This document shows positions 7,186-9,903 of a DNA stretch of 64,000 nucleotides, one piece after another. The stretch is taken from contig NZ_LIPD01000003.1 of NCBI RefSeq assembly GCF_001905545.1, forward strand, positions 841,147-905,146. The letters run 5' to 3'. The stretch is from Streptomyces sp. CB02056 (lineage in GTDB: Bacteria; Actinomycetota; Actinomycetes; Streptomycetales; Streptomycetaceae). The position numbers were made by a program, and so were the translations under genes. The stretch's first letter is position 1. Every line of letters starts with the position of its first letter. The notes under the pieces are model-generated. The model was not told where the DNA came from. It did no database searches and saw nothing but the letters and a program-made list of their open reading frames with translations.

Positions 7186-8460
7186 TTACTTGACCGGCTC
7201 GAGGACGGTCCGTCCGCCGAGGTACGGCCGCAGCGCCTCGGGCACGACGACCGAGCCGTCGGCCTGCTGGTGGTTCTCCAGGATCGCCACGATGGTGCGC
7301 GGGACGGCGACCAGGGTGCCGTTCAGGGTGGCGAGCGGGCGGGTCTTGCCCTCCTCGCGCATCCGGATCGACAGCCGGCGGGCCTGGTACTCGGTGGTGT
7401 TGGAGGTCGAGGTGACCTCGCGGTACTTGCCCTGGGTGGGGATCCACGCCTCGATGTCGAACTTGCGCGCGGCCGAGGCGCCGAGGTCGCCGGAGGCGAC
7501 GTCGATCACCCGGTACGGCAGCTCCAGCGCGTTGAGGAAGTCCTTCTCCCACTGGAGCAGGCGCCGGTGCTCGTTCTCCGCGTCCTCGGGAGTGGTGTAG
7601 ACGAACATCTCCACCTTCTCGAACTGGTGGACGCGGATGATGCCGCGGGTGTCCTTGCCGTAGGTGCCGGCCTCGCGGCGGAAGCAGGACGAGTAGCCGG
7701 CGTAGCGCAGCGGCAGCTTGTCGGCGTCGAGGATCTCGTCCATGTGGTACGCCGCGAGCGGGACCTCGCTGGTGCCGACCAGGTACCGGTCGTCCTCGGC
7801 GAGGTGGTACACGTTCTCGGCGGCCTGGCCGAGGAAGCCGGTGCCGTCCATGGCGGCCGGGCGGACCAGGGTCGGGGTGATCATCGGGATGAAGCCGGCC
7901 GCGGTGGCCTGGGCGATCGCCATGTTGACCAGGGCGAGCTCCAGCAGCGCGCCGACGCCGGTCAGGTAGTAGGAGCGGGCACCGGCGACCTTGGCGCCGC
8001 GCTCGGTGTCGATCGCGCCGAGGATCTGGCCGAGCTCGACGTGGTCGCGGGGCTCGAAGCCCTCGGCGGCGAAGTCGCGCGGGGTGCCGATCTCCTCGAG
8101 GGTGACGAAGTCCTCCTCGCCGCCGACCGGGGCGGCCGGGTCGATGAGGTTCGCCAGGGAGCGGAGCAGGCGGTCGGCCTCCTCCTTGGCCGCTCCCTGC
8201 TCGGCGTCGGCGGCCTTGACCTCGGCGGCCAGGTCCTTGGTGCGCTGGAGCAGGGCGGCCTTCTCGTCGCCCTTGGCCTGGGCGACCTGCTTGCCGAGCA
8301 CCCGCTGCTCGCTGCGCAGTTCGTCGAAGCGGCTGCCCGAGGACCGGCGCCGCTCATCGGCGGAGAGGAGGGCGTCGACCAGGTCGACGTCCTCGCCACG
8401 GACGCGCTGCGAGGCGCGCACTCGGTCAGGGTCCTCACGGAGCAGGCGAAGGTCAATCAC
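7186..8460 (-). CDS. serS: serine--tRNA ligase
   Basis: A 424-residue class II aminoacyl-tRNA synthetase, the usual bacterial length. The N-terminal helical coiled-coil arm, rich in [16 protein letters not shown]-like sequence, binds the tRNA-Ser variable arm. Motif 2 lies around [21 protein letters not shown] and motif 3 around the C-terminal [16 protein letters not shown]. The GTG at 8460 gives the standard N-terminus [12 protein letters not shown]; the frame extends upstream without support. The first 507 bases upstream form the DnaA-box region shared with pheA. No T-box-like leader was seen. Confidence 0.97.
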
Positions 8461-8510
8461 AGGCCCAAGCGTACCGGGAGACCGTTCCTCCACCGGTACG
8501 GCTTTTTCCC

Positions 8511-8891
8511 TGGGGATAACTCGCCCGCGCCTGTGGATAACTCCTGTGGGGAACTTCCCGTCGCCGGGTTATCCACAGGCCGGGCCCCGGGCCTGTGGAT
8601 CAAAGGGGAGGATTGCCTTCCGCGTGAACGAACCAGGGAATTGAGGTTTCAAACCTCAATCAACCTTCTCGGGTGAGGGAATTGAAGCACTCGGACGGGT
8701 GATTTGCTGGCAACCGGGTGACTCTGGTCCGATTGGTCATCTCTGCGACGCAAACCGATGGTCCGACCGGGTCTGGGCAATGGCTATACCGGTTTGTCGA
8801 CTCGTCCCCAGGCCTGTGGATAACTCCGGGCTGTGGACAGCGGGGAGCCCTGTGGACAGCGGTCTCCGGCCCCGACGGCCCCTGTGGACGA
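8511..8891. other. cluster of DnaA boxes (serS-pheA intergenic region)
   Basis: The 507-base gap between serS and pheA holds nine-base DnaA-box matches in two groups. Group 1: TGTGGATAA 8532-8540, TTATCCACA 8569-8577, TGTGGATCA 8594-8602. Group 2: TGTGGATAA 8815-8823, TGTGGACAG 8832-8840 and 8851-8859, TGTGGACGA 8883-8891. Weaker variants are at 8511-8519 and 8545-8553. The Streptomyces consensus is close to TTGTCCACA, so several boxes are near-perfect. From memory, S. coelicolor has a high-affinity non-origin DnaA cluster called D78 that moderates initiation, and its cosmid covers the serS region; this is probably its counterpart. There is no gene in this stretch. Confidence 0.85.
8640..8660. 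promoter_or_regulatory. 21-bp perfect palindrome between the two DnaA-box groups
   Basis: Two 10-base arms (ATTGAGGTTT and its complement) flank a single central C. The sequence is AT-richer than its surroundings. The decamer AGGGAATTGA starts at 8635 and recurs at 8676-8685. The site is an operator-like element whose regulator is unknown. It sits in the promoter region of serS or within the DnaA-box array. Confidence 0.5.
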
Positions 8892-8967
8892 CGGTGCGGT
8901 CACCCGCCCGGGCCGCCCGGGCCGGGCGAAAACAGTCGGAAAAGTCCGGAAGGACTCGAGGCGAAGC

Positions 8968-9903
8968 TCAGATGTCCCCGCGGCCGTCGAGCGCGCGGGA
9001 GAGCCAGTCCGCCGCCGAGGTGAAATCCCCGTCCGAGGTCCCCGGCCGGCGGTGGGTGGACTCCTGCCGGTCGGCGCGCGGATAGGAGCCGAGGTACCGC
9101 ACCTGCGGGCAGATCCGCTTGAGCCCCATCATCGCCTCGCCGACCCGGCGCTCGGACAGGTGGCCCTCGCAGTCGATCAGGAAGCAGTAGCTGCCCATGC
9201 CCTCGCCGGTCGGGCGGGACTCGATCCGCATCAGGTTGACCCCGCGCACCGCGAACTCCTGGAGCAGTTCCAGCAGCGCGCCCGGGTGGTCGTCCGGCAG
9301 CCAGACCACCATCGAGGTCTTGTCCGCGCCCGTCGGCGAGGAGACCCGCCCCGGGCGGCCGACCAGGACGAACCGGGTGGCCGCGCTCTTCGCGTCCGCG
9401 ATCTCCTTGACCAGCGGCTCCAGCCCGTAGATCGGCGCCGCGAACTCGCCCGCGAACGCGCCGTCGTAGCGGCCCTCGGCGACCAGCCGGGCGCCGTCCG
9501 CGTTGGAGGCCGCCGACTCCCAGTCCGCCTCCGGCAGATTGGCCGCCAGCCAGCGCCGCACCTGCGGCTGGGCCACCGGGTGGCTGGTCACCGTCTTGAT
9601 CCCGGACAGCTCGGTGCCCGGCCGCACCAGCAGCGCGAAGGTGATCGGCAGCAGCACCTCACGGTAGATCATCAGCGGTGTGCCGGAGGCGAGTTCGTCG
9701 TTGGTCGCGGTGACCGCGCCCTCCACCGAGTTCTCGATCGGGACGAACGCCCCGGCCGCCTCCCCGCCGCGCACCGCGTCCAGCGCCAGCGCCACCGAGG
9801 ACAGCGGCACCAGCTCCCGGGTCGCCGCCTCGGGCAGGGTGTGCAGGGCCGCCTCGGTGAACGTGCCGGCCGGTCCGAGGTAGGTGTAGCGGGTGGCCGA
9901 CAT
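8968..9903 (-). CDS. pheA: prephenate dehydratase
   Basis: A 311-residue enzyme converting prephenate to phenylpyruvate in phenylalanine synthesis. The N-terminal catalytic domain opens with YLGPAGTFTEAAL and holds the conserved ATRF motif (SAATRFVLVGR). The C-terminal ACT domain has DHPGALLELLQEFAVRGVN and ESRP, the phenylalanine-binding feedback elements. The length and monofunctional form are typical of Actinobacteria. The ATG is at 9903. It is codirectional with serS but separated from it by the DnaA-box region. Confidence 0.96.
   Translation of the reverse strand: MSATRYTYLGPAGTFTEAALHTLPEAATRELVPLSSVALALDAVRGGEAAGAFVPIENSVEGAVTATNDELASGTPLMIYREVLLPITFALLVRPGTELSGIKTVTSHPVAQPQVRRWLAANLPEADWESAASNADGARLVAEGRYDGAFAGEFAAPIYGLEPLVKEIADAKSAATRFVLVGRPGRVSSPTGADKTSMVVWLPDDHPGALLELLQEFAVRGVNLMRIESRPTGEGMGSYCFLIDCEGHLSERRVGEAMMGLKRICPQVRYLGSYPRADRQESTHRRPGTSDGDFTSAADWLSRALDGRGDI

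Follow-up and report, generated by a model that had tools for sequence, protein, structure and literature searches.

A conserved DnaA-box cluster with a constrained central spacer between serS and pheA of Kitasatospora, a probable counterpart of the D78 cluster of Streptomyces coelicolor

The 64,000-nucleotide stretch of DNA that was analyzed here (the window) carries, in the gap between serS and pheA, a dense cluster of DnaA boxes that lies near the replication origin, is conserved in the Streptomycetaceae and has a fixed inner geometry. The host is a Kitasatospora, its closest named relatives being of Kitasatospora type (Streptomyces sp. LS1784 and K. xanthocidica). We consider it very probable that the cluster, as the Kitasatospora counterpart of D78 of Streptomyces coelicolor, is an origin-proximal sink for DnaA; its central spacer may take regulatory input in addition.

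The whole element is held in a 507-bp intergenic gap (8461-8967, no strand) between two genes on the minus strand, that for seryl-tRNA synthetase (serS, 7186-8460, GTG start, TIGR00414) and that for prephenate dehydratase (pheA, 8968-9903, NF008865). A motif scan that allowed at most one mismatch to TTRTCCACA found eight boxes in this gap, three exact copies of TTATCCACA and five sequences with one mismatch. They fall into two groups, at 8511-8602 and 8815-8891, and seven of the eight have the same direction. The group on the serS side consists of TTATCCCCA (8511-8519, minus strand, one mismatch), an exact TTATCCACA (8532-8540, minus strand) and an inverted pair (8569-8602) in which an exact TTATCCACA (8569-8577, plus strand) faces TGATCCACA (8594-8602, minus strand, one mismatch), the pair having the form TCCACAG-N13-CCTGTGGA. 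A weaker copy of the box is found at 8543-8555. In the group on the pheA side all boxes are on the minus strand; the inner one is an exact TTATCCACA (8815-8823), followed by CTGTCCACA twice (8832-8840 and 8851-8859) and by TCGTCCACA (8883-8891), each with one mismatch. The extent given for the cluster in the initial annotation, 8511-8891, is correct and its division into two groups stands, but the two exact boxes counted there become three. Dinucleotide-preserving shuffles of the gap (n = 20,000) contained on average 0.11 boxes of at most one mismatch, and none of them gave eight boxes, or three exact ones. Exact boxes number 39 in the 9.54 Mb of the genome.

The gap was recovered from more than 130 Streptomycetaceae genomes and thinned to 102 for counts. 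A cluster was found in the serS-pheA gap of every genus examined with the exception of the sister clade g2+g5, so that the boxes are conserved in the comparison among related gaps that had been proposed at the outset; in g3, g4 and g15 the cluster sits beyond 700 bp upstream of serS. The other Actinomycetes examined have no such cluster in the gap, and the regions upstream of serS examined outside the family are free of exact boxes, even where pheA is close by. All 102 thinned gaps contain TTATCCACA, and 61 contain TTGTCCACA. The inverted pair with its 13-base interval is present in 90 of the 102, other spacings within the range 10-16 being unused, and was not seen in shuffles. Both this pair and GTTATCCACAGG/CTGGGGAYRAGTCGACA are common to Kitasatospora and Streptomyces gaps. 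Between the two the inner core is fixed, and it is the outer boxes that vary in how many there are and which way they point; what had been singled out in the number and orientation of the boxes as meriting comparison is therefore real, but amounts to ordinary variation among the outer boxes. Within Kitasatospora the distances to pheA and serS also vary (SD 67 and 97 bp, versus 0.7 bp for the core), and the gaps L029-L034 have about 1 kb of extra DNA between the cluster and serS. Since the flanking distances vary in this way around a fixed core, the cluster is not simply a control site of serS or pheA.

In g2 and g5 the gap lacks an exact box; instead, two or three boxes are found about 1 kb upstream of pheA (L246-L252), which in g2 are located between a deferrochelatase gene and a gene for a FetB-like permease. 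Because g2+g5 is the sister clade of all other genera (pheA tree, support 98), the cluster in the serS-pheA gap either arose after this split or moved, and the boxes upstream of pheA may represent a cluster that moved or one of independent origin. The exact site is therefore dispensable.

The true oriC lies between dnaA and dnaN on the same contig, about 176 kb from the cluster, in agreement with the original view that the cluster, with neither gene nearby, is not oriC. In 24 genomes, the serS locus was 64-171 kb from dnaA, the value for the source genome being about 176 kb. Streptomyces-type genomes (g10) carry the locus on the rpmH side, whereas Kitasatospora and several other genera have it on the dnaN side, and its strand flips with the chromosome arm (24 genomes). 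This switching of arms fits inversions about oriC in which the distance is preserved, as a titration site would need, and inherited synteny explains part of the kept distance. D78 thus appears as a family-wide element that may lie on either arm but stays near oriC, which is what one expects of a titration sink, and not as a peculiarity of S. coelicolor.

Within 180 kb of oriC the source genome (G000) has 11 exact boxes outside oriC, versus 1.2 expected if boxes were uniformly distributed; the related complete genome G073 has 13. Besides oriC itself and the serS-pheA gap, the only multi-box clusters near oriC are at crgA and dnaB. S. coelicolor reportedly has three DnaA-box clusters, named after the cosmids H69, H24 and D78, and we take the crgA, dnaB and serS-pheA clusters to fit these cosmids in that order; the crgA cluster is the probable counterpart of H69 and the dnaB cluster that of H24. 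D78 itself was described by Smulczyk-Krawczyszyn et al. (2006, J Bacteriol 188:6184), in a study that reportedly found an eight-fold affinity. The D78 cluster reportedly has a higher affinity for DnaA than oriC, and its loss reportedly increases initiation and accelerates aerial growth. The first of the two companion clusters (G000 C23; L003 5490-5700) separates a rhomboid protease gene from crgA and contains four exact boxes along with several of one mismatch; its distance to oriC is 48 kb in G000 and 16 kb in G073. The second (G000 C23; L002 4779-4867), between dnaB and the gene for a MATE transporter, lies 38 kb from oriC and comprises two exact boxes and three with one mismatch. Isolated pairs of exact boxes also occur in G000 away from oriC (C1:131433, C12:356247, C12:725964, C12:44617, C1:21693 and C23:340601), 12-47 bp apart start to start and mostly 17-18 bp; G073 and G025 have some of these pairs too, at similar spacing.

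The identification with D78 made in the initial annotation is supported by several features of the cluster: dense boxes in a conserved serS-pheA gap, a position close to oriC without being oriC, membership in a set of three clusters around oriC as published (cosmid names apart), and an inner core in common with Streptomyces gaps. The genes concerned are SCO3961 (serS) and SCO3962 (pheA) in S. coelicolor (PMC4595836, PMC6585502), where the DnaA-box clusters near oriC repress untimely initiation according to reviews (PMC5742627, PMC4585315).

The central spacer (8603-8814) is non-coding and, in Kitasatospora, conserved in both sequence and length. It is part of the element and not empty DNA between two box groups, a point overlooked in the initial annotation. 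The spacer has a GC content of 57% (8603-8812) versus 73% for the window. Among Kitasatospora genomes, the inner distance varies by a few bases only, and in pairwise comparison the spacers have an average identity of 0.69, versus 0.39 for the serS-side flank. A search for a small ORF in the spacer revealed no conserved frame and no 3-base period, and the consensus RNA fold is weak; thus, the spacer looks like protein-binding DNA. With this weak fold and no match in an Rfam search, no serS leader RNA or riboswitch was recognized.

Three sequences in the spacer stand out. The first is a perfect palindrome of 21 bp, ATTGAGGTTTCAAACCTCAAT (8640-8660, no strand). In 48 of the 49 listed genomes, all 48 of Kitasatospora type, its GGTTT and the box pair are exactly 56 bp apart; the exception, L034, belongs to another genus. 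Both arms of the palindrome are altered in L022, where it is still palindromic. The 15-bp core has its only exact match in the genome at this site, and a search for exact copies of the palindrome elsewhere in the genome, undertaken to find its regulator, gave none. The second is a block, AATCGGACCAGAGTCACC (8717-8734, minus strand), that is near-invariant in Kitasatospora and likewise occurs exactly in the genome only here. The third is the 17-base motif CTGGGGACGAGTCGACA (8795-8811, minus strand), unique in the genome, in which a weak box of the TTRTCCCCA type is joined to GTCGACA. This motif is one-directional: GTCGACA beside the inner pheA-side box is in forward orientation in 95 of 102 gaps and reversed in 5, shuffles giving about 5 each. 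The offset of GTCGACA from an exact box is 21-23, 32-34 or 44-45 bp in 123 of 138 gaps, with single cases at 42 and 55 bp, and in Streptomyces a second copy of GTCGACA is usually found 22 bp after the first. These steps are of about 11 bp, roughly one helical turn, with few independent shifts behind them. Helical phasing of the inner-box distance was also considered, but once the gaps had been thinned it did not reach significance (p about 0.11). Neither oriC nor the crgA and dnaB clusters of the source genome contain GTCGACA, and in L029-L034 the copy next to the inner box has been lost. The motif may serve as a very weak DnaA site (TTGTCGACT, two mismatches) or as a site for another protein. 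Neither the AdpA consensus TGGCSNGWWY nor an MtrA-like repeat was in excess over shuffles in the gaps. The available literature, with the original 2006 study of D78 outside our reach, yielded no description of the conserved spacer.

By analogy with the work on S. coelicolor, the cluster would bind DnaA and restrain initiation. The two box groups with TTATCCACA would hold DnaA on the chromosome and, because the site is 64-176 kb from oriC, the replication fork would double it soon after initiation; free DnaA would then fall and re-initiation would be delayed. E. coli offers a parallel (PMC12371093). The constraint on the spacer suggests a regulatory input in addition. One or more further proteins may bind the spacer and tune the loading of DnaA, which would make the element more than a passive sponge. 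The fixed inner geometry and the conserved spacer offer targets for asking whether developmental signals reach replication via the sink; such a link has been proposed on phenotype, and no mechanism for it was found in the literature searched.

One lead to a spacer-bound protein comes from S. coelicolor, in which serS (sco3961) is an EMSA-confirmed target of ScbR2, an antibiotic-sensing pseudo gamma-butyrolactone receptor, with a possible site AGGCCACCCTTCGTCCACCTGTTTCTTG; expression of serS was unchanged (0.947) in the mutant (PMC4595836, Table 2). This site matches positions 157-184 of L078 (G060) at 27 of 28 bases, inside the D78 spacer, about 100 bp past the inner box and 137 bp short of the box pair. 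It is a lead only, as the ScbR2 motif is degenerate and the site was predicted within the EMSA probe. In the window the best match to the site was 16 of 28 bases, which we judge to be chance. We regard as tentative, and on balance doubtful, a composite D78 in which the DnaA load is set by a second regulator bound to the spacer, possibly ScbR2 in S. coelicolor and another protein on the palindrome in Kitasatospora. If this were true, antibiotic or quorum signals would be tied to replication initiation and aerial growth.

A DnaA sink would act by binding. It seems rather unlikely that the cluster does more than this and alters the nucleotide state of DnaA (ADP/ATP), in the manner of DARS or datA. 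The fixed inverted pair and the constrained spacer resemble those elements in overall layout; datA and DARS need a protein bound in the spacer, which in E. coli is IHF, and an analogy between the S. coelicolor clusters and datA is drawn in reviews (PMC5742627). However, no evidence of datA-type hydrolysis or of DnaA rejuvenation was found for actinobacteria.

Alternatively, the cluster might be the serS promoter, at which DnaA, acting as a transcription factor, would couple expression of serS to replication. The gap is the sole non-coding DNA upstream of serS, the spacer is conserved, and in Kitasatospora the right box group starts 59-142 bp before the GTG of serS, so that a serS promoter may account for part of the spacer conservation. 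On the other hand, across the family serS lies anywhere between about 34 bp and more than 1 kb away with the core fixed, which makes transcriptional control of serS by DnaA less likely; no sigma-70-like promoter was found, and the two similar clusters adjoin unrelated genes. We therefore hold this explanation to be unlikely, while allowing that a serS promoter may be present within the spacer.

It is highly improbable that the cluster is a cryptic or relic second origin. As in Streptomyces oriC (PMC3411110), two box groups surround a spacer, and the lowest GC content over 50 bp is 44% versus 46% in oriC. However, the eight boxes fall short of a full array, 19 having been reported for oriC (PMC3411110); dnaA, dnaN and parAB are missing; the cluster is always near the true oriC; and the same gene pair has no boxes outside the family. 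Finally, a chance or compositional origin of the cluster is ruled out by the result of the shuffles (0 of 20,000) and by conservation in more than 100 thinned gaps.

The serS-pheA cluster, read as a DnaA sink of the D78 type, can be compared with four known systems. With D78 of S. coelicolor it shares the gene pair SCO3961 serS / SCO3962 pheA, a location near oriC but outside it, dense boxes and the inner core. It differs from Streptomyces D78 in being on the dnaN side in the source genome and not on the rpmH side (g10 genomes tested), in the number and direction of its outer boxes, and in having a spacer of about 245 bp with a palindrome versus about 260-280 bp for D78. The datA locus of Escherichia coli is likewise an origin-proximal DnaA-box cluster outside oriC, and reviews group it functionally with the S. 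coelicolor clusters (PMC5742627, PMC4585315), but there is no relation in sequence or synteny. The DnaA-box clusters of Bacillus subtilis (Okumura et al. 2012, as cited in PMC5742627), so far as they are described there, are also chromosomal, Gram-positive and restrain initiation, at loci that are not homologous. Streptomycete oriC has the same box family and the same plan of two groups and a spacer, but with far more boxes, a position between dnaA and dnaN and no GTCGACA motif. Set beside these systems, the serS-pheA cluster is ordinary in kind and well founded, and the conserved spacer, which appears to be unreported, is what it has in addition.
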